DNA of 64,000 bases from Methylophilus medardicus (lineage in GTDB: Bacteria > Pseudomonadota > Gammaproteobacteria > Burkholderiales > Methylophilaceae). The stretch is from assembly GCF_006363955.1 (NCBI RefSeq), contig NZ_CP040948.1, positions 806,001-870,000 of the forward strand. The letters run 5' to 3'. Both the position numbers and the translations under genes were made by a program. Shown in pieces: positions 10,667 through 44,900 of the stretch; the stretch's first letter is position 1; each line of letters opens with the position of its first letter. Under the pieces are notes generated by a model. The model ran no database searches and had not been told where the DNA came from. It saw nothing but the letters and a program-made list of their open reading frames with translations.

Positions 10667-12739
10667 TTAGAACAGACTTTGCGTAGTAGATTTGAGTTGC
10701 AACTCACTAAACACATCAAACAGAAATTGTTGCTCAACCGGCTTGGAAAAAAGAAAGCCCTGCATTTGATCACAACCGATGCTGACTAATGCTTTGCGTT
10801 GCGCTTCGTCCTCGACGCCTTCCGCCACCACGTTGAGGTCTAGTGCATGCGCGAGCTTAACAATCGCTTCAACAATCGAGAGTGCCGTATGAGAACCACC
10901 CACGCCTTTGGTCAGGGTGCGGTCGAGTTTCACTTCGCTGATCTCGAGGTCTTGCAAATGCATCAGGCTAAACGGGTGCAGACCAAAATCATCTAACGAG
11001 ATTTTTAAGCCTTGGCGTTTAAAGTGGCGTAAGGTCTCTTTAAACTGTGTCTGGTGATGAATGGCGTTGGTTTCGGATACTTCTAGAATCAGGTTGCGCG
11101 CTTCAACCTGATGTTGCTCAAGAAACGACTGAATCAGTGAACCAAGCTGTTTATTGCGGAACTGTTGATTAGACATGTTGACTGAAATGCTGAGGTCGAT
11201 GCCACGATCACGCGCCTGCTTGATCGTGCTGCACGCTTGCGAAATGACCCAGGCATTGATTTCTTCAATCATGCCAAAGCGCTCAGCGGCTTCAATAAAG
11301 CTATTGGGTGAAAGTAGCCCACGTGTGGGGTGTTGCCAGCGCAACAGCGCTTCTGCGCCATGTGCGAGCCGGGTCAGTGCATCCACTTTGGGTTGAAACA
11401 ATAACCTGAACTCTTGCTGCGTAATTGCTTGCTTGAGTTCAACCCGCGTTTGCTGCATTTCATCGGAGGCCTGCTCAATCTCGGCATCAAAAAAACGGTA
11501 TTGGTTTTTACCGTTTTCTTTGGCTTTGTACATGGCTGCATCTGCATTCAGTTTGAGTTTTTGCAGATTGCCATCTTGCGGATACATAGAGACCCCGATC
11601 GAACACGAGATTTCAATGACATGATCTTCAATAATGAACGTCTCGCGCAAGGCATCCACGATGCGTTGTATCACTGTGACCACACTCTGGTGACTCTCGA
11701 TTTCACTCAAAACAGCGATAAATTCGTCCCCACCCGCGCGTGCGACATAATCGCAATTACGGATGGCGTTACTAATCCGTTTGGATACTTCAATCAGTAG
11801 CAGGTCACCAATATGATGACCAAATTGGTCGTTCACCGGCTTGAAATGATCCAGATCGATGTAGGCCAGCGCCAGAGACTCGCCATTGCGGTCACAGCGC
11901 TTGGCACTGATAATCAGATGCTGATTTAAGGCGTCGCGATTGGGCAGGTGTGTGAGTGGGTCATAGGCTAAAAACTTTTTATTGACCGTTTGGGTGTTGC
12001 GGAACGTCAGCTTACTTTGCGTAATGTCGACATTGCGCTCATAAAAAATGACCAAAATAAACGAGGTGATAAACAATAGTACCGGCACCAGAACCAGTAA
12101 TAACATTAGGTAGTTGCCCGCTTGGTCGGTGGGTTGACCAATTAGCATGTTGTTGTGCACGATACTCAGGTTGATGGCGGTATGAGAGGCCAAAAAGCCT
12201 AGTGCAATTTCAACAGAAAACATCCATTTGAGTCGCTTCAGCGCTTGTCCCTCGTAGCTTTTTAACCAGAGAATGGTCACGATGGCCAAGGCTGAGGTTA
12301 AGCAAGCCAAAAAGAGCGCGAATAATGCGGTCCAAGTATCAATGCGTATGTTAATGGCGCCCGCGCTAATCTGAAAAAAATACGAAAGTAGATAACCACT
12401 GACCCCAGCGGCTAAGGAGGCGTACAACAAATCACGCAAAGGTAGTTTTTTCTGGTTGGCGGTTTTGAGTAACGACAATGAAAGCAGATATGCGCAAAGC
12501 ACACTGCCGATAAAATCCACCGGATGCTGGGTGATTTTAGGAATGTTGTCAGCGGCTAACTGATAGCCGGTATGCAGGGCGAAAATACCTGCAGCGGTCA
12601 GTGCTGAATATTTTTTTAGCAGCGTTTCATGATCTCTGGTGGCCACCAAGCGCAAACGATCCACGAGCTTAAATGCAAAAAAACATCCGATGACACTGGA
12701 TGTGAATAGCAGCAAAATAAGCATATGGGTTGGGATCAT
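10667..12739 (-). CDS. Seven-helix membrane GGDEF-EAL protein
   Basis: This 690-residue protein has about seven hydrophobic helices in the first 235 residues, then GGDEF and EAL domains. The N-terminal region resembles a degenerate MHYT sensor: histidines fall in ALHTGYQL (around 56) and SHTAINL (around 186), but no exact MHYT motif is present. GGDEF is at 336-340 with an RxxD site (RNCD) five residues earlier. The EAL signature EALLR is at 463-467, with EVSETN and AEGVEDE present; DDFGLH (from 583) replaces the usual DDFGTG. Both activities are plausible. It lies between dapD and the YffB-dapE pair, 194 bp from dapD, so it probably has its own promoter. Confidence 0.9.
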   Translation of the reverse strand: MIPTHMLILLLFTSSVIGCFFAFKLVDRLRLVATRDHETLLKKYSALTAAGIFALHTGYQLAADNIPKITQHPVDFIGSVLCAYLLSLSLLKTANQKKLPLRDLLYASLAAGVSGYLLSYFFQISAGAINIRIDTWTALFALFLACLTSALAIVTILWLKSYEGQALKRLKWMFSVEIALGFLASHTAINLSIVHNNMLIGQPTDQAGNYLMLLLVLVPVLLFITSFILVIFYERNVDITQSKLTFRNTQTVNKKFLAYDPLTHLPNRDALNQHLIISAKRCDRNGESLALAYIDLDHFKPVNDQFGHHIGDLLLIEVSKRISNAIRNCDYVARAGGDEFIAVLSEIESHQSVVTVIQRIVDALRETFIIEDHVIEISCSIGVSMYPQDGNLQKLKLNADAAMYKAKENGKNQYRFFDAEIEQASDEMQQTRVELKQAITQQEFRLLFQPKVDALTRLAHGAEALLRWQHPTRGLLSPNSFIEAAERFGMIEEINAWVISQACSTIKQARDRGIDLSISVNMSNQQFRNKQLGSLIQSFLEQHQVEARNLILEVSETNAIHHQTQFKETLRHFKRQGLKISLDDFGLHPFSLMHLQDLEISEVKLDRTLTKGVGGSHTALSIVEAIVKLAHALDLNVVAEGVEDEAQRKALVSIGCDQMQGFLFSKPVEQQFLFDVFSELQLKSTTQSLF

Positions 12740-12933
12740 AAAAAATGCACGGTCATTTTTGGTTGTGAGTTGTGTGACGCTACTGCCTATGATTACTTAA
12801 CGATTGATTCTCCGCATTAAAACACTGACGACACCATCATACTGCTTGAGAACGCCTCTTCATAACGGCCTGCGACTGCCATAACTTGAGGGCAGGGCAG
12901 GCAGATACGCAAATGACGCTCTGTTAAAAGACC

Positions 12934-13761
12934 TTAGATGCCACGTAATAATTCGTTGATACCGACTTTGCCTAAGGTTTTAGCATCGACCTTCTTCACA
13001 ATGACTGCGCAATATAAGCTGTATTTCCCGTCGCTAGAAGGTAAGTTGCCAGAAACCACGACTGAGCCTGCAGGCACACGGCCAAAGTGAACCTCGCCGG
13101 TCTCGCGGTCATAGATCTTGGTCGATTGACCAATATAAACGCCCATCGAAATCACGCAGTTGTCTTCAACCACAACGCCTTCAACGACTTCTGAACGCGC
13201 GCCGACAAAGCAATTGTCACCAATAATCGTTGGGCCAGCTTGTACCGGCTCGAGCACGCCGCCAATACCGACGCCGCCTGATAAGTGCACGTTTTTACCG
13301 ATCTGCGCGCAGGAACCAACAGTCGCCCAAGTGTCTACCATGGTGCCCTCGCCGACATAAGCGCCGATATTGACGTAAGACGGCATCAATACCGCATTTT
13401 TACCAATAAAGGAGCCTTTGCGGACGATGGCATTTGGCACCACGCGGAAGCCGCCTGCTTTGAAGTCTTCTTCGCTGTAGCTGGCAAATTTTGGATCGAC
13501 TTTGTCAAAATAACGCGTCACACCATCATCCATCAGGGTGTTATCTTTTAAACGGAAAGATAACAACACTGCTTTTTTCAGCCATTGGTGGGTTTCCCAT
13601 TGCTGCGTGTCACCAATGCGGCTAGCCACGCGCAATTTACCGGCATCCAGATCGTCTAACACAGAGGCCACGGTGGCTTTGATTTCGGCGGCTGCATTGG
13701 CAGGGTTGATGTTGGCGCGGTCTTCAAAAGCCGCTTCAATAATGCTTTGACGTGGATCCAT
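12934..13761 (-). CDS. dapD: Tetrahydrodipicolinate N-succinyltransferase
   Basis: DapD succinylates tetrahydrodipicolinate in the diaminopimelate/lysine pathway. The 275-residue product shows the left-handed beta-helix hexapeptide pattern over roughly 110-230, such as [20 protein letters not shown] and [11 protein letters not shown]. An N-terminal helical domain and the family C-terminus KVGINELLR are also present. Length matches E. coli DapD. It is on the same strand as dapE, which acts two steps later, but is separated from it by a c-di-GMP gene and the YffB-like gene. Confidence 0.95.
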
Positions 13762-13863
13762 GATGTTCTCTTGTTCGGTTAAATAACAGTGAAACCCGAA
13801 ATTTTAACCTAATTTTGACGGGTCAGGGGCAGCGCATCGCGGCCCGCCCCAGTCAAGTGAGTT

Positions 13864-14676
13864 TTATTTGCTTTTGCTCGCGAGGTAAAACGGCATCACT
13901 TTAGGGGTTAATGCTTGTAGATCCTTGATGCGGTTTTCGCTCGAAGGGTGTGTGCTCAAAAATTCTGGCGGCGCCTCTTTGTTGGTCGCCATCATTTTTT
14001 TCCACAGGCTGACGGCAGCTTCTGGGTTGTACCCTGCGCGCGCGGCTAACTCCAGCCCCATTCGGTCAGCTTCTCTCTCTTGTTCACGACCATTTGGCAA
14101 AGAAAAAAGAAGCTGGCTACCCATGCCTGCGCCTTGGGCAGCCATGCTGCCGGCGGTGCCGCCGACAAACGCCGCCAGCGCTTGCAGGCCAAATTGCTGA
14201 ATGTAGGCTTGTGACATTCGTTCACGTCCATGCTCGCGTAACGCATGCGCGATTTCATGACCGATCACCGCCGCCAGTTCATCGTCGGTGGCATTGAGTT
14301 TTTCGGCCAACCCAGAAAACATCATGATTTTGCCACCAGGCATGCAATAGGCATTCAGTTGATCATTTTTTTCGACATTGACTTCCCATTTCCATTTGGC
14401 AGCATCTGGTCTGAACACAGCCACTTGTGCGATCAGGCGGTGGGAGATAGTCGACACGCGATTCAGTAAGGGTTTGTCTGCATTGAGCGTATTTTTCTTT
14501 TCGGCTGCTTGCAGCGTTTGCGTATAAGACTGGGCAGACATCTTGTCTACAGTGGCCGATGGCAGCAATAACAGTTGGCTGCGCTGCACGCCTGAAACGC
14601 TGTTATTGGTAGTACTGGCACAGGCCGATAACAACGCACACAGGCTGACGATTGAAAGCATTTTGACATTAAACAT
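13864..14676 (-). CDS. M48 family metalloprotease, predicted lipoprotein
   Basis: This 270-residue protein has a lipoprotein signal peptide ending in LLSAC (lipidated Cys19). Its zinc protease motif HEIAH is at 140-144, and the third ligand Glu lies in the downstream EREADRMG. It resembles the small M48 proteases LoiP/YcaL and the catalytic part of BepA, which clear misfolded outer-membrane proteins. No C-terminal TPR domain is present, which argues against BepA. The location is probably the periplasmic face of the outer membrane. The gene stands alone between dapD and kup, with about 100 bp on each side. Confidence 0.88.
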   Translation of the reverse strand: MFNVKMLSIVSLCALLSACASTTNNSVSGVQRSQLLLLPSATVDKMSAQSYTQTLQAAEKKNTLNADKPLLNRVSTISHRLIAQVAVFRPDAAKWKWEVNVEKNDQLNAYCMPGGKIMMFSGLAEKLNATDDELAAVIGHEIAHALREHGRERMSQAYIQQFGLQALAAFVGGTAGSMAAQGAGMGSQLLFSLPNGREQEREADRMGLELAARAGYNPEAAVSLWKKMMATNKEAPPEFLSTHPSSENRIKDLQALTPKVMPFYLASKSK

Positions 14677-14802
14677 AGGGTTTCCTCACACAAGAGTGCG
14701 ACGCTGTTTTGCCAGCACATCGCACTGGTTGATGCATTGCAATAAGTAAAAAAGTGTATTTTACGCCAGGACGATGCCGCTGCGTGCGGCATGCCATCAG
14801 GT

Positions 14803-16686
14803 TTATATTTTCACTTGTGAGCCGAGCTCGACTACCCGATTGGGCGGTAACTTGAATTGGTTAGTGATGGTTTCGGCGGTTCTGAACAAGCCGATGAAGA
14901 TCTTTTTGCGCCAAAAAGCCATGCCGGGCTTGTCGGACGCAATCAGACTCTCTTTACCGACAAAGAATGAGGTATCCATCGCATCCATGGTTAATCCTAA
15001 GGCCTCTGTCAGCACCAAATCTCTGGGCAGGTCTGGCTCGTCCATATAGCCATAGCGCAAGGTGACGCGATAAAAGCCATAAGGCAACACCTCGACCGCA
15101 ACCCGCTCTTCGCGGCTGGTATAGGGGTAATCCTCAAAGCGCACCGTCAGGATGACCATGGTCTCGTGGAGCACCTTGTTGTGTTTGAGATTGTGCAGCA
15201 AGGCATGCGGCACGCCGTCCGGGTTGGGCGTCATAAATACGCCCGCCCCATTGACGCGGGCTGGCGGATGGGCGCCAATGGCTTGAATAAAAGGAATCAG
15301 CTCCATCGACTCTGATTTCAAAATGCTATATAACAACCGGCGGCCCGTTTTCCAGGTACGCATCAGGGTGAAAATAATCAGACCAATCAGCAATGGCACC
15401 CAGCCACCATCCGGTATTTTGAGAATATTGGCGGCGAAGAAGGAGAGGTCAATCACCAAGAATAAGGTAATCAAACAAGCGGTTTTAAGTTTGCTCCAGC
15501 CCCACAGGTGATGAAAGACCACCGCTGCCAGTAAGGTGGTAATCACCATATCGCCAGTCACGGCGATGCCATAGGCGGCGGCTAGGTCGCCTGAACTGCC
15601 AAAAATAAGCACCAGCCCCATGACGGCGACCATCAGCCCCCAGTTGACACGTGGCATGTAGACTTGACCCTCTGTTTTTTCAGAGGTGTGTGCCACATGC
15701 ATTCGTGGAATAAAGCCTAGTTGTAAGGCTTGGCGCGAGACAGAAAACGCCCCCGTAATCACGGCTTGAGATGCAATGACGGTGGCAAGGGTGGCTAACA
15801 GGATGAGTGGGAATAGGGCCCAATCCGGGGCCAGGTGGTAAAAAGGGTTTTGAATCGATTCTGGTTCGGCCAGAATGAGCGCGCCTTGCCCAAAGTAATT
15901 GCAGATCAACGCGGGCAATACAAATAAAAACCAAGCCAATCGAATGGGTTTGCGGCCAAAATGGCCCATATCGGCATAAAGTGCTTCAGCGCCAGTGACC
16001 GCGAGCACCACGGCACCCAGTGCAATAAAAGCAATTTTGGGTTGGGTGTAAAAAAACATGAACGCGTAAGAGGGGCTCAAGGCCTTGAGGATCTCTGGAT
16101 GGTGGTTGATGTTGATCACACCAAGAATGCCCAGCACCGCAAACCAAGTGAGCATGATCGGGCCGAAAAATGCACCCACCACTGCAGTCCCCTTGCTCTG
16201 GGCCCAAAACAATAGAAACAGCACGAAAAGTGTGATCGGTACAATCCAGCTATCGAGCTGCGGCGCAGCCACTTCTAGACCTTCAACCGCTGACAGCACT
16301 GAAATGGCGGGCGTAATCATGCCGTCAGCGTAAAACATACAGGCACCAATAATGCCCAGCATCATGATGCGTTTGCGTTGGTCCGGCTCACCGCCGGCAT
16401 AGCGGCTGGCTAATGACAATAGCGCCATGATGCCGCCTTCGCCACGGTTGTCGGCACGCATAATAAAAGCGACGTATTTAAACGATACGATCAGCAATAA
16501 CGCCCAAGTGATTAACGACAAAATGCCGTACACGTTGTCTTGTGTGAGTAGTAGGGGATGGTGCCCGACCGCAAACACTTCTTTCATGGTGTAGAGGGGG
16601 CTGGTGCCAATATCCCCGAAAACGACGCCAAGCGCGGCGAGGGCCATGGTGTGGAGCGCCGTTTGCTGATTTTTTGTGTGGTCCAT
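14803..16686 (-). CDS. kup: Low-affinity potassium uptake protein Kup
   Basis: The 627-residue inner-membrane protein is a proton-coupled K+ transporter. The N-terminus contains the highly conserved ALGVVFGDIGTSPLYTMKE, followed by about 12 membrane helices. GGEGGIMALLSLA, FYADGMITPAISVLSAVEG and TGAEALYADMGHFG are diagnostic. A C-terminal cytoplasmic domain of about 160 residues completes the family length. The frame is open 64 codons further upstream, but the chosen ATG gives the normal N-terminus and the upstream codons run into the xseA end. Confidence 0.95.
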   Translation of the reverse strand: MDHTKNQQTALHTMALAALGVVFGDIGTSPLYTMKEVFAVGHHPLLLTQDNVYGILSLITWALLLIVSFKYVAFIMRADNRGEGGIMALLSLASRYAGGEPDQRKRIMMLGIIGACMFYADGMITPAISVLSAVEGLEVAAPQLDSWIVPITLFVLFLLFWAQSKGTAVVGAFFGPIMLTWFAVLGILGVININHHPEILKALSPSYAFMFFYTQPKIAFIALGAVVLAVTGAEALYADMGHFGRKPIRLAWFLFVLPALICNYFGQGALILAEPESIQNPFYHLAPDWALFPLILLATLATVIASQAVITGAFSVSRQALQLGFIPRMHVAHTSEKTEGQVYMPRVNWGLMVAVMGLVLIFGSSGDLAAAYGIAVTGDMVITTLLAAVVFHHLWGWSKLKTACLITLFLVIDLSFFAANILKIPDGGWVPLLIGLIIFTLMRTWKTGRRLLYSILKSESMELIPFIQAIGAHPPARVNGAGVFMTPNPDGVPHALLHNLKHNKVLHETMVILTVRFEDYPYTSREERVAVEVLPYGFYRVTLRYGYMDEPDLPRDLVLTEALGLTMDAMDTSFFVGKESLIASDKPGMAFWRKKIFIGLFRTAETITNQFKLPPNRVVELGSQVKI

Positions 16687-36955: not shown

Positions 36956-37025
36956 CCTAGATGCACTCAGGTAAGCTTTTTGTTATTGATATCAATTTTT
37001 AATGGCACGTGATCCGGTATTCACT

Positions 37026-37925
37026 ATGAAATGGATTCTATTAGGCATATTTTTAGCGTCAGTGAGTTATGTGCACTTTAGAGGCAAAGTGCGGCATCGT
37101 TTTTTTAGGCAGCTATTTGATCACTCCGGCATTGTGTCGCCGTTTAATGTGTTTTTATATCTGTTTTCGAAAGCGCCAACGACGCCATATCTTGAAGTTG
37201 CTGCCTTCCCAGAGTTAAAAGCCATCACCGACCAGTGGCAAGTGATTCGCGATGAAGCGTTGCATGTGCGCGAGCAAGAGCGCATCGCCGCCGCACAAAC
37301 CAATAACGATGCGGGGTTCAACTCATTTTTTAAAACCGGTTGGAAGCGGTTCTATCTTAAATGGTACGATGCACAGCATCCTTCGGCCGCTATATACTGT
37401 CCCAAAACGGTCGCACTCCTGCAAAGTATTCCTACCGTGAAAGCGGCGATGTTTGCTGAGTTGCCACCGGGTGCGCATTTGCGCCCACACCGCGACCCAT
37501 ACGCAGGTTCACTGCGTTTTCACCTCGGCCTTGAAACGCCTAACGACGACCAATGTTTTATCCGAGTCGATGGCGAAGATTACAGTTGGCGCGATGGACA
37601 AGCGGTGATGTTTGATGAAACCTATATTCACGAAGCGCACAACAAAACCGATCAATCACGAGTCATTTTGTTTTGCGATATTGAACGGCCGATGCGATTT
37701 GGCTGGGCGCAAGCGTTGAACCGCTTTTTAGCCAACACCATTGTGACTGCGGCCAGTTCACCGAACGAGGCAGGGGACCAAACCGGTGTCATTAACCGCC
37801 TGTTTCATTACGCTTGGGTGGTTGGGCAATATCGCCGTCGTTTCAAACGCTGGAATAAGCCAGTGTATCAAATCACCCGTATCTTATTGATTGCATTGGC
37901 TTGTTATGCGATTTGGCGGCTTTAA
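37026..37925 (+). CDS. lpxO: Lipid A 2-hydroxylase LpxO (aspartyl/asparaginyl beta-hydroxylase family)
   Basis: This 299-residue Fe(II)/2-oxoglutarate dioxygenase has an N-terminal membrane anchor (about 1-17) and YVHFRGKVRHRFFRQLFDHS, like the start of Salmonella LpxO. The metal-binding HRD (155-157), a following HLGLETP and a distal His in DETYIHEAHN (about 197-206) are seen, with an Arg after it for 2-oxoglutarate. A C-terminal hydrophobic helix ends the protein. LpxO hydroxylates a fatty acid of lipid A at the inner membrane. The frame allows an ATG 8 codons earlier (37002); the one used matches the family start. Confidence 0.85.
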   Translation: MKWILLGIFLASVSYVHFRGKVRHRFFRQLFDHSGIVSPFNVFLYLFSKAPTTPYLEVAAFPELKAITDQWQVIRDEALHVREQERIAAAQTNNDAGFNSFFKTGWKRFYLKWYDAQHPSAAIYCPKTVALLQSIPTVKAAMFAELPPGAHLRPHRDPYAGSLRFHLGLETPNDDQCFIRVDGEDYSWRDGQAVMFDETYIHEAHNKTDQSRVILFCDIERPMRFGWAQALNRFLANTIVTAASSPNEAGDQTGVINRLFHYAWVVGQYRRRFKRWNKPVYQITRILLIALACYAIWRL

Positions 37926-38737: not shown

Positions 38738-38766
38738 AAAAAGCCCGCCGATAGGCGGGTTTTTTG
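38738..38766 (+). terminator. Rho-independent terminator after the BI-1 family gene
   Basis: CCCGCC-GATA-GGCGGG forms a 6-bp GC stem (38744-38759), extended by A-T pairs and followed by six T. Confidence 0.9.
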
Positions 38767-39140
38767 TTGTCTATCGGTCATTAACTGCACGGCAATCCTG
38801 TTTTGCCGTGAGAGCTCCAAGCACCGTCCATAGCGAAATGGATTGTTACTAATGACGTAGCCATCCAACATCTAGCAGCGAACAATACACATGATTAATA
38901 ACAATGAACCCAGCCATCATTGCTTTACGATCATCTAAGCAGATTAAAAAATGGTTGATTTGCTTCAATAACCCGCGAATTGCAGGTTTTTTATTTGCGC
39001 GATGTTCACTGCTAACGTAATCGTTCGTTTGATATGGTTTACTACAGCCAAAATGGCTGTGAACAGCCGCAAAAAGTGGTTGTAAAGATTAATTAATTTA
39101 TAACTAATTGATTGTGTTGAATTAATTATAGTGTTGCAGG
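38767..39140. other. Long non-coding region before the TonB receptor
   Basis: No credible frame is present. It holds a perfect 8-bp stem CACGGCAA/TTGCCGTG (38788-38810) and a terminator-like imperfect hairpin with a T tract near 38970-38992. A perfect dyad at 39044-39060 is listed separately. Bases 39080-39130 are very AT-rich, as expected for a bent or IHF-binding segment. A small RNA ending near 38992 is possible but not shown. Confidence 0.5.
39044..39060. promoter_or_regulatory. Perfect dyad, candidate activator site
   Basis: ACAGCCA-AAA-TGGCTGT is a perfect 7-bp inverted repeat. A further half-site ACAGCC follows two bases later. It lies about 81 bp before the candidate sigma-54 promoter of the TonB receptor gene, the usual distance for an enhancer-binding activator. 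Confidence 0.5.
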
Positions 39141-39156
39141 TGGTTTGATTTTTGCA
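39141..39156 (+). promoter_or_regulatory. Candidate sigma-54 promoter for the TonB receptor
   Basis: TGGTTTG-ATTT-TTGCA fits the pattern TGGCACG-N4-TTGCW with the GG and GC elements invariant and correctly spaced. The start site would be near 39167, leaving a leader of about 14 nt that still contains the GGAGGAG ribosome site. Three mismatches in the -24 box lower confidence. Confidence 0.45.
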
Positions 39157-39180
39157 CCTTTTCCTCGTTGGAGGAGAAGT

Positions 39181-41796
39181 ATGTTTAGCAAAAAATTAAA
39201 ATCGGGTTTGTGTTTAGCAGTCTATTCTTGTGTGTCCATCGCGGCTGACGGGGAGGCCGGGGCGGTCAACCCACCCGCCAAGCCGGTGGATTCAAAAACG
39301 ATAGAGTTAGATGAGATTCAGGTGAAGGCAAAGCGCCGGCGCATTATTACCCCTTTGCCCGGTTTGCCGATCGAGCGTGAAACAGCTACCACCAATATTC
39401 AATCTGCGACCGGTAAGGAGATTGCGGACTCTAAAGCGACCAATGTGACCGAGTTTCTCAATGGCAATATGCAGTCTGTCACGGTGACTGACTACGCCGG
39501 CAACCCCTTTCAGCAAGATTTAAACTTTAGGGGGTTTACCGCATCGCCTCAAATCGGTACGCCGCAGGGCATTTCCGTTTATCTAGACGGCGTGCGGATC
39601 AATGAGCCATTCGGCGAGGTAGTCAACTGGGATTTGATTCCGATGAACGCCATTTCTACGCTGAATATTATCCCGGGTTCTAATCCGATGTTTGGCCACA
39701 ATACCATCGGCGGTGCATTGGCGATCACGACCAAAGATGGTTTCTCGGATCATTTCATGCGTGCCCAATATCTGGCCGGGGATTGGGGCCGAGAGCAGGT
39801 GCAATTTTCAAATGGCATTCACGGCGAGCGATTTGCTTTATTCACCGCTTATTCACATTTCAAAGAAGACGGCTGGCGGGTGAATTCGCCGAGCAATGTT
39901 CGTCAACTATTTAACAAAGCCACCGTGCGGCTGGATTCGGGTGAAATTAACTTCACCGCGTTGCATGTGAATGCCGCATTGCTTGGCAATGGGCTTTTGC
40001 CAAAAGAGATGGCTGCCTATGATCGCGAGCAGGTGTTTACCTCGCCTGATGAAGCTAAAAATAGCCTTGAGCATTACAACTTAGGCGGGACTTGGTATGT
40101 TAGCGACCGAGTGAGTATTTCTGGTCAAATTTACAGGCGGAAAGTTGCCCAAGATGCCATAGGCGCCGATGTTTATCCCGGTTACAAAAGGTTATATTCA
40201 AACTGGCAAGATGTCGGTCAGAATGATGCAAACGGCGATGGCATTGACGAGGTTGTCGGTGCAATGAATGGATTGCTGAATTATTCCTCCTTAAGATCGA
40301 CCGCTGATGGCGCTTCGGTACAAGCCACTTTTGACGGAGACAAGCATCAGGTTGCGGTGGGAGCCGCCTATGATGAAAATGAGATCAAGTTTTTGCAATC
40401 CCAAGTGCTTGCTGAGCTAGACGCGGATCATATTGCCCGTTTAACTACCAATCCCTTCTTTGCTGACAATGGATATGGGGGGCAAACTTCTCTGCCGGGC
40501 ATTATTCGAAATAATCTGACTGGCACCAGCCAAACCAAAGCGCTGTTTATGTCGGATACCTATTCCCCGATCGACACCCTGCATATCACCTACGGCGCGC
40601 GCCTAAGCTGGAGTAATGTGAAAAACTACCTGATTGCTGATCGCGGCTTGGATATGTATCAATTTCAGAACAATGTCCTCACTAACCCTGCACGACAGCG
40701 CTGTCGAATCGGTAACTCTGGCGACCCGCTAGCCCGGTTTATTTGCACGACCGGGGATTATGATTATCGAAGCTTTAATCCCTCCCTGGGCTTGTCTTGG
40801 GAAGCGCAGGAAAATTTAACTGCCTATGGCAACGTGAGTAAGGGTTCTCGCGTGCCTTCAGTGATTGAGCTGGGTTGTGCCAGAGACAAAGAAGGCGAAA
40901 ATCAAAGTGATAACGTGCAGTACGGCTGTACGATTCCAACCGCCTTGACGGCTGACCCGTATTTGAAGCAAGTGCGCTCAACCGCCTATGAGACCGGGTT
41001 ACGCGGCAGAATAGCCGACTTTGATTGGAATATTGGCGCCTTTTTGACTGACTTAAAAGACGATATCTTATTTGTGCCACTGGGGCGTAAAAACCGAGGT
41101 GTGTTTGATAACTTTGGCAAAACGCGGCGTGAAGGCATCGAGATGGGTTTAAAAGGCGTGTGGGGCAACAGCACGATCAATTTTAACTACACTTGGATGC
41201 GGGCGACGTTTCAAAGCAGTGCGCAGTTGATTAACGATGCCAATAGCAGCAACACATCAGCTACCGACGGGCAAGCTTACGTTAACATCTCGCCGGGAGA
41301 TGAGTTGCCCGGCATGCCCAACCATATTGTTCAAGCCAATTGGAACTACCGATTCACGCCTGCCTTTGATGCGACACTCAGCATGATTGCGCACGCGTCA
41401 TCTTATGTGCGCGGCAATGAAAATAACGCACACCAGCCGCGTGCAGCTTTGATGGTAGGCACTCGGGATATCTATGACTTTACTGGGCCAGGATCCATTC
41501 CGGGCTATGCCGTGTTTAATTTTCGCGCGAATTATCGTTTTGATAATGGTGTGAGTTTGTTCGCACGGGTTGATAACATTTTTGATAAAGAATATGCCAC
41601 CGCCGGCAATCTAGGACGCAATCCATTTGCAGCCAATGGTGCTTTTAAGTTTGACCCAGTCACCATCGATGGTGATTGGAAAAACTCAACGTTCATCTCG
41701 CCTGGAGCGCCTCGGGCGGCTTGGTTTGGGCTGAATATTGATTGGGGCTGGGATAAGGTCAAAAAATCAAAAGCCGTGCAAGAGCTCGCCGATTAA
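39181..41796 (+). CDS. TonB-dependent outer-membrane receptor
   Basis: This 871-residue protein has a signal peptide (cleavage near 21), a TonB-box-like IELDEIQVKA (41-50), a plug domain (about 65-185, with LNFRGFTASPQIGTPQG and GHNTIGGALAITTKDG) and a C-terminal barrel. The substrate cannot be told from sequence. Two cysteine pairs lie in predicted loops (AARQRC...FIC and LGC...YGC). The last strand ends at IDWGW, but a charged 14-residue tail follows, unlike the usual terminal aromatic. I chose the ATG with GGAGGAG 5 bases upstream; the frame is open 12 codons earlier. Three PEP-CTERM genes follow on the same strand. Confidence 0.92.
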   Translation: MFSKKLKSGLCLAVYSCVSIAADGEAGAVNPPAKPVDSKTIELDEIQVKAKRRRIITPLPGLPIERETATTNIQSATGKEIADSKATNVTEFLNGNMQSVTVTDYAGNPFQQDLNFRGFTASPQIGTPQGISVYLDGVRINEPFGEVVNWDLIPMNAISTLNIIPGSNPMFGHNTIGGALAITTKDGFSDHFMRAQYLAGDWGREQVQFSNGIHGERFALFTAYSHFKEDGWRVNSPSNVRQLFNKATVRLDSGEINFTALHVNAALLGNGLLPKEMAAYDREQVFTSPDEAKNSLEHYNLGGTWYVSDRVSISGQIYRRKVAQDAIGADVYPGYKRLYSNWQDVGQNDANGDGIDEVVGAMNGLLNYSSLRSTADGASVQATFDGDKHQVAVGAAYDENEIKFLQSQVLAELDADHIARLTTNPFFADNGYGGQTSLPGIIRNNLTGTSQTKALFMSDTYSPIDTLHITYGARLSWSNVKNYLIADRGLDMYQFQNNVLTNPARQRCRIGNSGDPLARFICTTGDYDYRSFNPSLGLSWEAQENLTAYGNVSKGSRVPSVIELGCARDKEGENQSDNVQYGCTIPTALTADPYLKQVRSTAYETGLRGRIADFDWNIGAFLTDLKDDILFVPLGRKNRGVFDNFGKTRREGIEMGLKGVWGNSTINFNYTWMRATFQSSAQLINDANSSNTSATDGQAYVNISPGDELPGMPNHIVQANWNYRFTPAFDATLSMIAHASSYVRGNENNAHQPRAALMVGTRDIYDFTGPGSIPGYAVFNFRANYRFDNGVSLFARVDNIFDKEYATAGNLGRNPFAANGAFKFDPVTIDGDWKNSTFISPGAPRAAWFGLNIDWGWDKVKKSKAVQELAD

Positions 41797-42151
41797 TCGC
41801 TGATCGTATTGACGCGAACGACAGGCAAAATTGGTTCTAAAGGATAGAGTTGGTTGTCTGCAACCACCACCTTACCCTCAAGACCGCTTTTATGTCATAA
41901 AAATGTGTGGTTTGACGTAATGATTCGTGTGTTAATCAAATTTTACCTTTGAATGTATTTAAATTAACCAATTGATTTTAAATATATTTATAGTCAAATA
42001 TTATTGGGTAATGGTAAAAAGTTTGTGTTGGTGAAGCACATTCAAATTTTGGCATGCGCTTTGCAATCAATCCTAAATGTAGTGGCATAACAACATATAA
42101 AGCCATGGATATCTAAGTTGAAAAATTTAAGATTTATTTAGGAGAAAAGCA
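41797..42151. other. 355-bp AT-rich regulatory region before the first PEP-CTERM gene
   Basis: No gene is present. It contains small perfect dyads TGGTTG-TCTG-CAACCA (41851-41866) and TTTTATG-T-CATAAAA (41888-41902), a long AT-rich segment (41930-42010) and the candidate sigma-54 promoter listed separately. The AT-rich part could carry IHF sites between activator sites and promoter. Confidence 0.55.
42050..42065 (+). promoter_or_regulatory. Candidate sigma-54 promoter for the first PEP-CTERM gene
   Basis: TGGCATG-CGCT-TTGCA differs from TGGCACG-N4-TTGCW at one position. Transcription would start near 42076, giving a 76-nt leader with an AGGAGA ribosome site. PEP-CTERM genes in other betaproteobacteria are known to depend on RpoN with the PrsK/PrsR two-component system. 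Confidence 0.65.
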
Positions 42152-43036
42152 ATGAAGTTAAAATCATTAGTACTTGCAACAGTGCTTGCTGTATCTGCCT
42201 CAGCGGCATACGCAGGCAATTACGTCACATTAGGTACCGGTGACGGTAGCGTGTTAACACCGGGCAATGGTGGTCTGCGTAACGGCACCCAAAACCCTAA
42301 CGCTGACATTTATCGTATTGAATTGTTATCTGCTACCTATGTGGCTGGCTACGACACCTCCAACTCATTCGGCAATATCGTTGCTGATACCATCAATTAT
42401 CAAACGTTCAACCGTGTTGGCAGCAACAATGTGGCCACAGGTACGGGCACATTAACACTGCTTGATTGGAAAGTGCACACCGGTGTGGATCTTGCGCCCG
42501 GCACAGCCCAGGCCGACATTTTTGACTTTGTTTACCGCGATAGCGCTGATAACAGCCTGGTATTTGCCACGCGTTATTTGAACCGTCAGGATAATAGCCA
42601 AGAAGCTAACTATCTCTACCGCTACAACTACACCAACACGCCAGGATATCAACCAGGCGTGGCTTGGATGTTCTCCAGTGACAATGACTTGCGCATGTAT
42701 CAAGCCGCGTTGACCGATGATTTTAGCTTCAATAACTCTGTGCCCTATGTTGATGGCGTCGTCCGTCAAAAGGGTGACTTCAGCGTTTCTGAAGGTAACC
42801 CATGGTCTGGTTTGTTTTTAGTGAAAACTGACGCGCAATATTACTTCTACAGCGAAAACATCAAAGCAATTGGTTTTTCACAAGCTGGTGAAGAGGGGCA
42901 AGCGGTTGTCAACGGCTGGATTGGTGGCTACGTGGCGAGTGTTGTGCCAGTACCAGAGCCAGAAAGCTACGCTTTGATGATGTTGGGTCTAGGTGTGATT
43001 GGCACCATGGTTCGTCGTCAAAAGAAGCAGGCATAA
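42152..43036 (+). CDS. PEP-CTERM sorting-domain protein
   Basis: This 294-residue exported protein has a signal peptide (AAYAGN, cleavage near 22). The C-terminal PEP-CTERM tripartite signal is VPEPES, a hydrophobic helix (YALMMLGLGVIGTMV), then RRQKKQA. Exosortase would remove the tail and deliver the protein to the cell surface or matrix. The body has no named domain but is clearly paralogous to the next gene: FDFVYRDS, SDNDLRMYQAALTD, EGNPWSGLFLVKTDA and QAGEEGQAVV recur. It has no cysteine. AGGAGA precedes the ATG. Confidence 0.92.
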   Translation: MKLKSLVLATVLAVSASAAYAGNYVTLGTGDGSVLTPGNGGLRNGTQNPNADIYRIELLSATYVAGYDTSNSFGNIVADTINYQTFNRVGSNNVATGTGTLTLLDWKVHTGVDLAPGTAQADIFDFVYRDSADNSLVFATRYLNRQDNSQEANYLYRYNYTNTPGYQPGVAWMFSSDNDLRMYQAALTDDFSFNNSVPYVDGVVRQKGDFSVSEGNPWSGLFLVKTDAQYYFYSENIKAIGFSQAGEEGQAVVNGWIGGYVASVVPVPEPESYALMMLGLGVIGTMVRRQKKQA

Positions 43037-43063
43037 ATAAATAAATATAAAAGCCATGAAAAT

Positions 43064-43090
43064 ATGGCGGTTTTTGCCGCCATTTTTTTA
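43064..43090 (+). terminator. Terminator between the two paralogous PEP-CTERM genes
   Basis: ATGGCGG and CCGCCAT form a 7-bp stem with a 6-nt loop, followed by seven T. The next start codon is only 17 bp on, and no promoter is obvious between, so partial read-through probably feeds the second gene. Confidence 0.8.
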
Positions 43091-43106
43091 ACCTTCTGAG
43101 AGATAT

Positions 43107-43949
43107 ATGATGAAATTAATGACTTTAAAAATGGCGATTGCCAGTGCGATGCTGTCCTTAGCAACCACTGCGACTTATGCAGGCAACTTTACCAATGTGC
43201 CTTATACAACGCCTAATGCGACCGTTGTAAACGGTGCCACCAATCCGGTGGCAGATCAGTTGTTCCTTGATGCGACTAGCATTACTTGGGCAACGGGCTT
43301 TGATGGTTTGGTTGCGCAGTCTATCAACTACAGCGCAACAGCTGGTAATGGCACTTTGACCCTGCTTTCATTCAGAGAAAATGACGATATCTTGTTGGCA
43401 GGACAAGAGGTCGGTGATCTGTATGATTTTGTTTACCGTGACTCTTTAGACGGCAAACTTGTGTTTGGCACTCGTGTCATTTTAGAGGGTGAAGAAGAAG
43501 AGGAAGAGGAAGTTGAAGAGGGCGAAGAGTTCGAAGTTGAACTGAACTTTATCTACCGTGGAGGTTTCACCAACTACACGACTGCTGCCGCTTGGACGTT
43601 CTTGGGTGACAACGACTTGCGTATGTACAACGCTGCGCGGACCGATAGTTATGAATTGGATGCGCCATTTGATGCAGATGCAGATTTGATCCGTTTCCAA
43701 GCAGACATTAGCCCAGAAGAAGGTAATCCAATTTCTGGTTTGTACTTAGTAAAAACCGATGCAACTGCCTTCTCTTTGGCAGCGAATGCCATTGGCTACT
43801 ATCAAGCAGGTGAAGAAGGTCAAGCGGTGGTTGGTGAGTTCATTGCTGGATTTGCGCCAACTGCAGTGCCAGAGCCAGAAAACTACGCTTTGATGATGTT
43901 GGGCTTGGGCGCTATTGCTTTTGCTCGTCGTCAGCAGAAAAAAGCTTAA
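43107..43949 (+). CDS. PEP-CTERM sorting-domain protein, paralogue with poly-Glu insert
   Basis: This 280-residue exported protein has a signal peptide (ATYAGN, about 26) and the C-terminal sorting signal VPEPEN, YALMMLGLGAIAFA, RRQQKKA. It aligns along its length with the preceding gene (YDFVYRDS, GDNDLRMYNAARTD, EGNPISGLYLVKTDA). Near residues 125-150 the first copy has a polar loop. This copy instead has a run of Glu and Val with little else, encoded by repeated GAA/GAG codons. Such runs bind cations or arise by slippage. Two ATGs are adjacent; the first is given. Transcription depends on read-through or a weak promoter in the 70-bp gap. Confidence 0.9.
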   Translation: MMKLMTLKMAIASAMLSLATTATYAGNFTNVPYTTPNATVVNGATNPVADQLFLDATSITWATGFDGLVAQSINYSATAGNGTLTLLSFRENDDILLAGQEVGDLYDFVYRDSLDGKLVFGTRVILEGEEEEEEEVEEGEEFEVELNFIYRGGFTNYTTAAAWTFLGDNDLRMYNAARTDSYELDAPFDADADLIRFQADISPEEGNPISGLYLVKTDATAFSLAANAIGYYQAGEEGQAVVGEFIAGFAPTAVPEPENYALMMLGLGAIAFARRQQKKA

Positions 43950-43994
43950 TAACAATAATCACGACTTTAACCTAAAGCACATTTTTAAAATTAA

Positions 43995-44020
43995 GGGGTG
44001 GCTGGTCCACCCCGCTTTTT
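43995..44020 (+). terminator. Stem-loop before the third PEP-CTERM gene
   Basis: GGGGTGG and CCACCCC form a perfect 7-bp stem around CTGGT, followed by GCTTTTT. It is only 14 bp before the next start codon, so it may act as an attenuator rather than a full stop. Confidence 0.65.
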
Positions 44021-44034
44021 AGGGGGATCCTTAC

Positions 44035-44847
44035 ATGAAAAACATCATCAAAACTTCCGTATTGGCTGCATTGTTGGCATTGTCTGCACAGGCTTCAGCG
44101 AAAACGGCTATTTTCGATTTAAACTTTATTGCCACCAATAACTTTGGCACCACTGCAAACAGCGTAGGTACCGTGACTGTGACCGATCTGGCTGACTTAT
44201 CTGCTGGTGATGGCGTGCGTGTCACTGTGAATTTGAATAATCTGAGCCAGTTTGCATCAGGCAATACAGGTGCAGTTTGGATTTCATCTTACGAAATGAA
44301 CTTTGCTGGTACCGAGCTGCTGGGAAGTGACAATGTTCGCCACGTGGCCGGTTTGAATACATCTCGCATTGAGTGGGAAGAAGATGGTTGTGTCGGTTAT
44401 GGCACCAACTGTGCTAGTTCTGGTGGTGGTTGGGGCGGTACCGAGTTCGATCCAGCGTTTGGTCAAGAGATCAACTTTGCGACCAGTACATTTACCAATG
44501 GTCAATTTTCAACTATTGACTATTTGAACGGTGGCAATGCTGGTTATACTGGTTTTTCAGTAGACCAATTGCTGGCCAATGCGGTTGAGCACAGCAGCGA
44601 TGCGAATGCACCAGATGCTTATTTCTGGATTCGTATTCGCGGCAATACTGCAATCAATGGTGGCGGTATGGCTTCTAGCGGCTACTGGGGTAACAGCTTC
44701 ACGAATGGTTCTGGTGACGGTTTGAACTATCGTCTGAATGTTTTAGCCACTACAGCTGCGGTTGTGCCAGAAGCTGAAACCTATGCCATGTTGATGGCTG
44801 GTTTGGGTTTGATGGGCGCGGTTGTTCGCCGTCGTAAAACTGCATAA
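44035..44847 (+). CDS. PEP-CTERM-type sorting protein (PEA variant)
   Basis: This 270-residue exported protein has a signal peptide (AQASA near 22). The C-terminal signal is VPEAETYAMLMAGLGLMGAVVRRRK, where PEA replaces PEP; this variant is common in betaproteobacteria. The body is not related to the two preceding proteins. It is rich in Asn, Gly and Thr, looks beta-rich and has two cysteines close together (DGCVGYGTNC, near 122 and 128) that may form a disulfide. The function is unknown; delivery to the cell surface or matrix is expected. A bidirectional terminator follows. Confidence 0.88.
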   Translation: MKNIIKTSVLAALLALSAQASAKTAIFDLNFIATNNFGTTANSVGTVTVTDLADLSAGDGVRVTVNLNNLSQFASGNTGAVWISSYEMNFAGTELLGSDNVRHVAGLNTSRIEWEEDGCVGYGTNCASSGGGWGGTEFDPAFGQEINFATSTFTNGQFSTIDYLNGGNAGYTGFSVDQLLANAVEHSSDANAPDAYFWIRIRGNTAINGGGMASSGYWGNSFTNGSGDGLNYRLNVLATTAAVVPEAETYAMLMAGLGLMGAVVRRRKTA

Positions 44848-44868: not shown

Positions 44869-44900
44869 ACAAACCCGCCAATGGCGGGTTTGTTGTTTTT
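44869..44900. terminator. Terminator between the third PEP-CTERM gene and tadA
   Basis: ACAAACCCGCC and GGCGGGTTTGT form a perfect 11-bp stem around AAT, followed by a T-rich tract. It separates two converging genes. Confidence 0.88.

Follow-up and report, generated by a model that had tools for sequence, protein, structure and literature searches.

In a 64,000-nucleotide (nt) stretch of the Methylophilus medardicus chromosome, hereafter the window (positions 806001-870000 of a one-contig 2.6 Mb genome), a gene for a TonB-dependent receptor (TBDR), termed TBDR-A, is followed by three genes for PEP-CTERM proteins, P1, P2 and P3. The receptor and P1 are linked beyond chance across genomes, and the TBDR-A and P1 promoters carry the same predicted enhancer together with a sigma54-like site. 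The explanation we favor, at a probability of roughly 0.42, is a two-layer uptake system in which P1-type proteins are the exosortase-sorted surface partners of a sigma54-regulated receptor. TBDR-A would be the outer-membrane importer. P1 would be exported, with P2 and P3 as accessory copies, and XrtB, the only exosortase found in the genome, would direct it to the surface of the cell or the polysaccharide layer, where it would bind or concentrate the substrate of the receptor, or dock on the receptor itself. Both promoters would belong to a TonB-receptor regulon switched on by an NtrC-type regulator. Taken separately, the capture or docking role of the surface proteins is tentative, at odds somewhat short of even. 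The broader proposal is more doubtful still: that a PEP-CTERM family can serve as a dedicated external subunit of a TonB importer, fixed in the coat, passing its ligand on, and governed by a sigma54 regulon with the enhancer TGGYT-N6-ARCCA. PEP-CTERM proteins, of which many environmental bacteria produce dozens, are for the most part poorly understood; one such family fixed to one importer would offer a concrete, testable function.

Domain matches and the open reading frame (ORF) layout agree that the four genes lie uninterrupted on the + strand, as the initial annotation of this DNA had described. TBDR-A (39181..41796, 871 aa) bears plug and barrel domains, both over cut-off (PF07715, E 9e-16; PF00593, E 1e-39). 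It probably starts at ATG 39181 rather than at the TTG 39145 of the ORF list, because GGAGGAGAAG precedes this ATG and the first Met of four relatives aligns there. P1 (42152..43036, + strand) and P2 (43107..43949, +) are paralogs sharing 46% identity. P3 (44035..44847, +), a PEA-type PEP-CTERM protein, was tried as a further member of the P1 family and set aside, its alignment to P1 and P2 being confined to the sorting tail. That tail, PF07589, is over cut-off in all three proteins (E 4e-8, 2e-5 and 2e-7 for P1, P2 and P3). On TIGR02595, with a cut-off of 16, they score 24.6, 22.0 and 15.7 bits, respectively, and the P3 stretch reaches 20.2 bits in a genome-wide search with the same model. 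Their N-terminal signal peptides are putative, being assigned by visual inspection and a simple rule for hydrophobic stretches. The one exosortase found in the genome is XrtB (336 bits, cut-off 275), so that both marks of an exosortase substrate, the C-terminal tail, made up of a PEP-type motif, a hydrophobic stretch and a basic tail, and an exosortase in the same genome, are present for P1-P3.

Linkage of the receptor and P1 across genomes

Among 187 Methylophilaceae genomes, P1 was found in 17 (E<=1e-30), the receptor in 17 (E<=1e-160), and both in 16, a co-occurrence with a hypergeometric p of 5e-21 when genomes are treated as independent and kinship is left uncorrected. Two genomes do not match: in G014 the receptor has 41% identity and diverged PEP-CTERM genes come after it (L103), and in G165 P1 begins at the end of a contig. 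Within a set of 61 genomes, close P1 orthologs (the best 12, with at least 54% identity) and close receptor orthologs (at least 57%) occupy the same 12 genomes. A P1-anchored scan of a collection of 84,980 species returned 24 loci (Methylophilus 6, Methylobacillus 4, Methyloversatilis 6, Methylophilaceae without genus 3, others without genus 5), and in 20 of them the receptor lies directly upstream of P1 on the same strand. For three of the remaining loci (L108, L121 and L128) the contig begins too close to P1 to judge, while the fourth, L118, is a second P1 copy located ~20 kb from the complete copy L129 on the same contig. The two linkage counts are not independent, because many of the P1-anchored loci come from genomes that were also covered by the Methylophilaceae search. 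The initial annotation had named a rare joint occurrence of receptor and PEP-CTERM genes in relatives as one finding that would undo its grouping; what was found is a near-perfect co-occurrence with the adjacency kept.

The receptor and P1 adjoin while their neighbors differ, and the pair thus stays together through a change of chromosomal place. In 11 genomes the module sits at the site defined by a YccA-like gene and tadA (in G007 spread over two contigs). An XrtB-type polysaccharide locus houses it in bacterium 11 and in four Methylobacillus genomes; in L097 and L102 this locus includes EpsL, other Eps proteins and a transferase of the WcaJ type, the remaining cases matching these genes as far as listed. 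In Methyloversatilis it is found at other chromosomal places. The polysaccharide setting invites a different account, namely co-regulation without partnership, by which P1-P3 would be matrix or flocculation proteins that stabilize the polysaccharide layer and are co-induced with a nutrient receptor for surface-attached, nutrient-poor growth. This account, which we regard as unlikely but deserving serious weight, can also point to pepA, a PEP-CTERM gene whose sigma54 control has been demonstrated, which is involved in floc formation and after which a putative terminator is described (PMC9850573). However, a pairing of one receptor clade with one PEP-CTERM family that persists through relocation exceeds what a shared lifestyle would need, and neither the strong sigma54-like site nor the perfect palindrome of P1 is seen at any other PEP-CTERM gene scanned.

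Shared promoter signals and a predicted TonB-receptor regulon

The second line of evidence for the two-layer uptake system comes from the promoters. Upstream of TBDR-A lies a perfect palindrome, TGGTTTACTACAGCCA (TGGYT-N6-ARCCA; 39035..39050, + strand), a predicted activator site. A second copy with one mismatch, TGGCTGTGAACAGCCG (39054..39069, +), follows 19 nt from the first, and a candidate sigma54-type -24/-12 element, TGGTTTGATTTTTGCA (39141..39156, +), scores 9.0. Upstream of P1, another perfect palindrome, TGGTTGTCTGCAACCA (41851..41866, +), is accompanied by a sigma54-type site, TGGCATGCGCTTTGCA (42050..42065, +), whose score of 18.2 is the best in the window on either strand. All scores are relative to a matrix built from a sigma54 consensus, and the distances are approximate, gene starts for the promoter scans having been set partly from alignments.

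The palindrome was first spotted by eye in the upstream stretches of the 11 YccA-site loci and then counted. Having suggested the palindrome, these loci cannot test it independently; independent tests come from the Methylobacillus loci, the genome-wide count, the relatives of a second receptor, TBDR-B, and the regulator search. The palindrome scan covered 24 loci, from which L101, the same-genome copies (L106-L108, L110-L114, L117), L118, L121, L123 and L128 are excluded. With at most one mismatch, the palindrome stands at both promoters in 16 of these loci, comprising the 11 YccA-site loci, bacterium 11 and the four Methylobacillus loci; in each of the 16, at least one perfect copy lies 5' of the receptor. 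In each of the 11 YccA-site loci the palindrome (<=1 mismatch) also precedes the first PEP-CTERM gene after the receptor, which in L098, L099 and L100 encodes a 460-aa protein, not P1. On the receptor side, all 11 YccA-site loci have a GG-N10-GC 37-47 nt upstream of the assumed gene start, with scores of only 9.0-11.6. Downstream of the receptor, sigma54-type scores are at least 11.4 in all 10 YccA-site loci scanned and 9.7-12.3 in the four from Methylobacillus. They stay under 9 in L097 and L109, and also in the eight scanned loci that are of the Methyloversatilis type or related. Among 30 PEP-CTERM genes scanned, two of them with incomplete upstream DNA, P1 alone has a sigma54-like score of at least 12, and P1 alone has a perfect palindrome within 400 nt upstream, P3 having a near match.

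Genome-wide, the perfect palindrome occurs at 44 places, versus 15 for a reversed control pattern. A sigma54-like score of at least 12 lies within ~200 nt of 10 of the 44, versus 3.5% of random positions, and a score of at least 9 accompanies 15 of them, versus 12% of random positions. Six of 17 TBDR genes or operons have the palindrome and a sigma54-like site upstream, two of these sites scoring only 9.0 and 10.2. The predicted members are TBDR-A; TBDR-B with an NtrC-type regulator; a receptor for which FecA and siderophore models score best, though below their cut-offs; a TBDR with genes for an extracytoplasmic function (ECF) sigma factor and a FecR-like protein; a TBDR with a FecR gene; and a TBDR behind an ECF sigma gene, this last receptor being over the siderophore-receptor cut-off.

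The candidate activator is encoded closely behind TBDR-B (L135:5361-9470, genome 1175360-1179469), where a gene for an NtrC-type sigma54 response regulator occupies 1178054-1179469 and tandem palindromes lie upstream of the receptor. The two genes are adjacent in 9 of 11 relatives, and all nine have at least two palindromes (<=1 mismatch) 5' of TBDR-B. The remaining two relatives are L190, with no palindrome, and L189, with one near match ~680 nt upstream; the genome of L189 (G027) carries a regulator homolog elsewhere, apparently adjoining another TBDR. Regulator orthologs with at least 67% identity occur in 14 of 14 palindrome-bearing genomes queried, and also in G003 and G010. No regulator (E<=1e-150) was found in six of eight palindrome-free genomes; for seven of the eight (all but G213) the search depth was 68 of 87-126 candidates, or all of 65, and the negative is limited to that depth. 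The genome also has rpoN. Together, these observations suggest that the NtrC-type regulator beside TBDR-B may activate both the TBDR-A and the P1 promoter within a TonB-receptor regulon. The analysis predicts, for several TonB receptors of methanol users, both a sigma54 enhancer and the protein likely to activate it; if true, the regulon would place TonB receptor expression under an unusual kind of control.

A sigma54-dependent PEP-CTERM regulon is not in itself new. The prediction of sigma54-controlled PEP-CTERM genes preceded by an activator motif dates from 2006 (PMC1569441), and TBDR-A could simply be an ordinary extra member of this classical PrsK/PrsR regulon. The likeness, shared by pepA, comprises a sigma54-type promoter, an upstream activator motif and a PEP-CTERM gene. 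The order of motif and sigma54 site is the same, and the mean spacer of 62.8 nt given in that paper (PMC1569441) compares with 71 nt at the receptor promoter, counted from the second palindrome copy. Moreover, the regulator on the TBDR-B side scores 384 bits on the PrsR model, which is second only to AtoC among its best models. Nevertheless, no protein of the genome passes the PrsR cut-off of 502.6 bits (24 hits, best 411.9), and motif 1 of Haft is a 17-mer ending in TTTACA (PMC1569441), unlike TGGYT-N6-ARCCA. A strong sigma54-like site is found at 1 of 30 PEP-CTERM genes, as against a palindrome with a sigma54-like site at 6 of 17 TBDR genes or operons. The present set differs further in counting TBDR operons among its members, in having its candidate regulator beside a TBDR, and in its exosortase, XrtB. 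Simple membership of the PrsK/PrsR regulon is, on balance, improbable.

Three other places in the genome deserve mention. Tandem perfect palindromes with a sigma54-like site lie at L139 (genome 95656, 95678), with no clear target gene. A second TBDR/PEP-CTERM neighborhood of the same genome (L104:2994-11151, genome 600993-609150) contains exbB, exbD, tonB and a PEP-CTERM gene; after these come a palindrome with a sigma54-like site and the genes for FecR and for a TBDR of 1222 aa. At L157:580-3646 (genome 2181579-2184645), a TBDR that resembles haem receptors, yet stays under the model cut-offs, has a same-strand PEP-CTERM gene directly 5' of it, and no palindrome was found 5' of this receptor.

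Candidate substrate and precedents for a proposed external partner

Every listed TBDR family model stays far below its own cut-off for TBDR-A, including the siderophore receptor model TIGR01783 (91.8 bits, cut-off 223.5) and the PqqU model (66 bits, cut-off 1200), and Pfam gives no signalling domain. Because a siderophore-type receptor sits in the predicted regulon, the first candidate for a substrate is a scarce metal chelate; another ligand of comparable scarcity may serve as well. A more specific proposal is that the receptor imports the methanol-dehydrogenase cofactor pyrroloquinoline quinone (PQQ), a PQQ-metal complex or a lanthanide complex, with the acidic surface proteins holding the ligand near the cell; the mature proteins P1, P2 and P3 have isoelectric points of 4.3, 4.05 and 4.1, respectively, with cleavage points placed by hand. 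All 16 genus-named P1-anchored loci belong to Methylophilus, Methylobacillus or Methyloversatilis, which are methylotrophs. By profile search, the solved structures nearest to the TBDR-A family are those of YncD/PqqU (E ~1e-17), a TonB-dependent PQQ transporter. In the two Methyloversatilis loci L122 and L123, a convergent pqq cluster with pqqB, pqqD and pqqE identified comes right after the module (~11818-14903). In a methanotroph, two of four lanthanide-switch suppressor mutations lay in or near exosortase genes (PMC5874918). However, the signature residue of PqqU, Y99, is aromatic (Y, F or W; PMC12124388), and its equivalent in the TBDR-A family is Ile or Val, which, along with the low score on the PqqU model, weakens the proposal; the stretches with R304 and R365 of PqqU lie outside the alignment. 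Furthermore, pqqB of this genome lies ~510 kb away, and the pqq neighborhood is confined to 2 of the 24 P1-anchored loci, both from sister strains. We consider uptake of PQQ or its complexes highly unlikely. PqqU is also reported to serve as a phage receptor (PMC12124388), and the PEP-CTERM proteins might in principle shield TBDR-A from phages or bacteriocins, in keeping with a PEP-CTERM gene set that differs among genomes. Yet the P1 core is well conserved, with a mean column identity of 66% over 12 orthologs, and we hold shielding to be very improbable indeed.

SusCD, HasR/HasA and OprC/azurin each combine an outer-membrane TonB receptor with an external binding protein; P1 is likened to these by arrangement, and differs in that the external protein would be sorted by an exosortase. 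The last of these pairs is also mentioned in the report on ZepA, which is the closest precedent for the present module (PMC10957091). ZepA is a PEP-CTERM exoprotein of Anabaena that mediates zinc uptake, for which its authors propose a transfer of zinc to an outer-membrane receptor; genes for TonB-dependent transporters and other PEP-CTERM genes lie near some ZepA homologs (PMC10957091). Like P1, whose signal peptide is putative, ZepA ends in a PEP-CTERM tail; it is exported by a signal peptide, and its function is in metal uptake, as that of P1 may be. It differs in its predicted zinc-binding His residues and in being a Zur target, whereas mature P1 has one His, mature P2 has none, and the control predicted here is by sigma54. 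In addition, the receptor of ZepA is a proposed, as yet unidentified one (PMC10957091), whereas that of P1 would be its fixed neighbor. A search of open-licence literature, judged by titles and abstract openings, found no description of the receptor/PEP-CTERM layout or of TGGYT-N6-ARCCA among the papers listed, which for some queries were the best-ranked 10 or 20. The statement of the initial annotation that it knew of no such system is to be qualified by ZepA.

Several observations weigh against the two-layer uptake system. The physical partnership between P1 and the receptor is something that we infer from sequence, and across this genome the number of TBDRs with a PEP-CTERM gene nearby, 3 of 17, does not significantly exceed the expected 1.3 (p=0.14). 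At the promoters, the receptor-side sigma54 score of 9.0 is reached by 12% of random positions, and in 8 of the 24 loci of the palindrome scan (L109 and seven Methyloversatilis-type or related) the pair occurs without the palindrome at either promoter. A near match (<=1 mismatch) turns up in 84 of 600 random 400-nt stretches. Since a near match alone is not rare, the weight of the palindrome lies in its perfect copies, its paired arrangement and its conservation. A sigma54-like score of at least 12 accompanies 10 perfect palindromes, of which only five can be assigned to P1 or to TBDR operons; those at 95656, 95678, 1065562, 1072680 and 1242690 have no clear target or lie inside genes. Two of the eight palindrome-free genomes carry a 57% homolog of the regulator; the Fisher p for the association of regulator and palindrome is 4e-4 when these two are counted and 3e-6 when they are not, kinship being uncorrected in both. 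As for the protein, no classic metal site is evident in P1, because the mature form has no Cys and a single His. P1 falls below every cut-off of the specific families, and its confident structure model (predicted local distance difference test, pLDDT, 86.4) matches no PDB fold at E<=0.001, the best rows having template modeling scores by query of 0.09-0.28. The P3 model (pLDDT 57.6) was too poor for a fold search.

Transcription signals and variable content of the block

The gaps between TBDR-A and P1, P1 and P2, and P2 and P3 measure 355, 70 and 85 nt, respectively. The terminator scan places hairpins on the + strand within the second and third of these gaps (43064..43083 and 43995..44013). 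Because of these internal terminator-like hairpins and the separate sigma54-like sites of TBDR-A and P1, the block is, on its predicted signals, neither one transcript nor a simple operon, and a reading as a single transcription unit is not supported. The statement of the initial annotation that terminators bound the block is incomplete in view of the internal hairpins. At the 3' end, a + strand hairpin, AACCCGCC-AAT-GGCGGGTT (~44872..44890), is followed by T-rich DNA; this hairpin was read from the sequence and is absent from the terminator scan list. Upstream of the block, the scan gives a hairpin at 38744-38759 on the - strand only. A search of 36-48 kb of the window for known RNA elements gave four weak matches, none over its gathering score.

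The make-up of the module beyond the receptor and P1 is variable. Two paralogs followed by a PEA-type gene, the layout that the initial annotation had singled out, are indeed present in the window, but the PEP-CTERM set differs among relatives. A high-identity P2 is found in three genomes (the window, L091 and L092), and a P3-type gene in the modules of some relatives. An extra PEP-CTERM protein of ~460 aa occurs in three genomes (L098, L099 and L100/L101, the last split over contigs), and an additional PEP-CTERM gene lies upstream of the receptor in four (L091, L094, L096 and L098). P2 contains a Glu-rich insert (window 43485-43545), which in the alignment is most clearly common to the P2 rows of L106 and L107. 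At L109:12070-14331, P1 and a P3-type gene are followed by a second TBDR that is 33% identical to the first one. In the window, the block is flanked by a gene of the Bax1-I family (YccA-like) on one side and by tadA on the other, and a gene for LpxO, a lipid A hydroxylase over its family cut-off, lies at 37002-37925, just 5' of the YccA-like gene.

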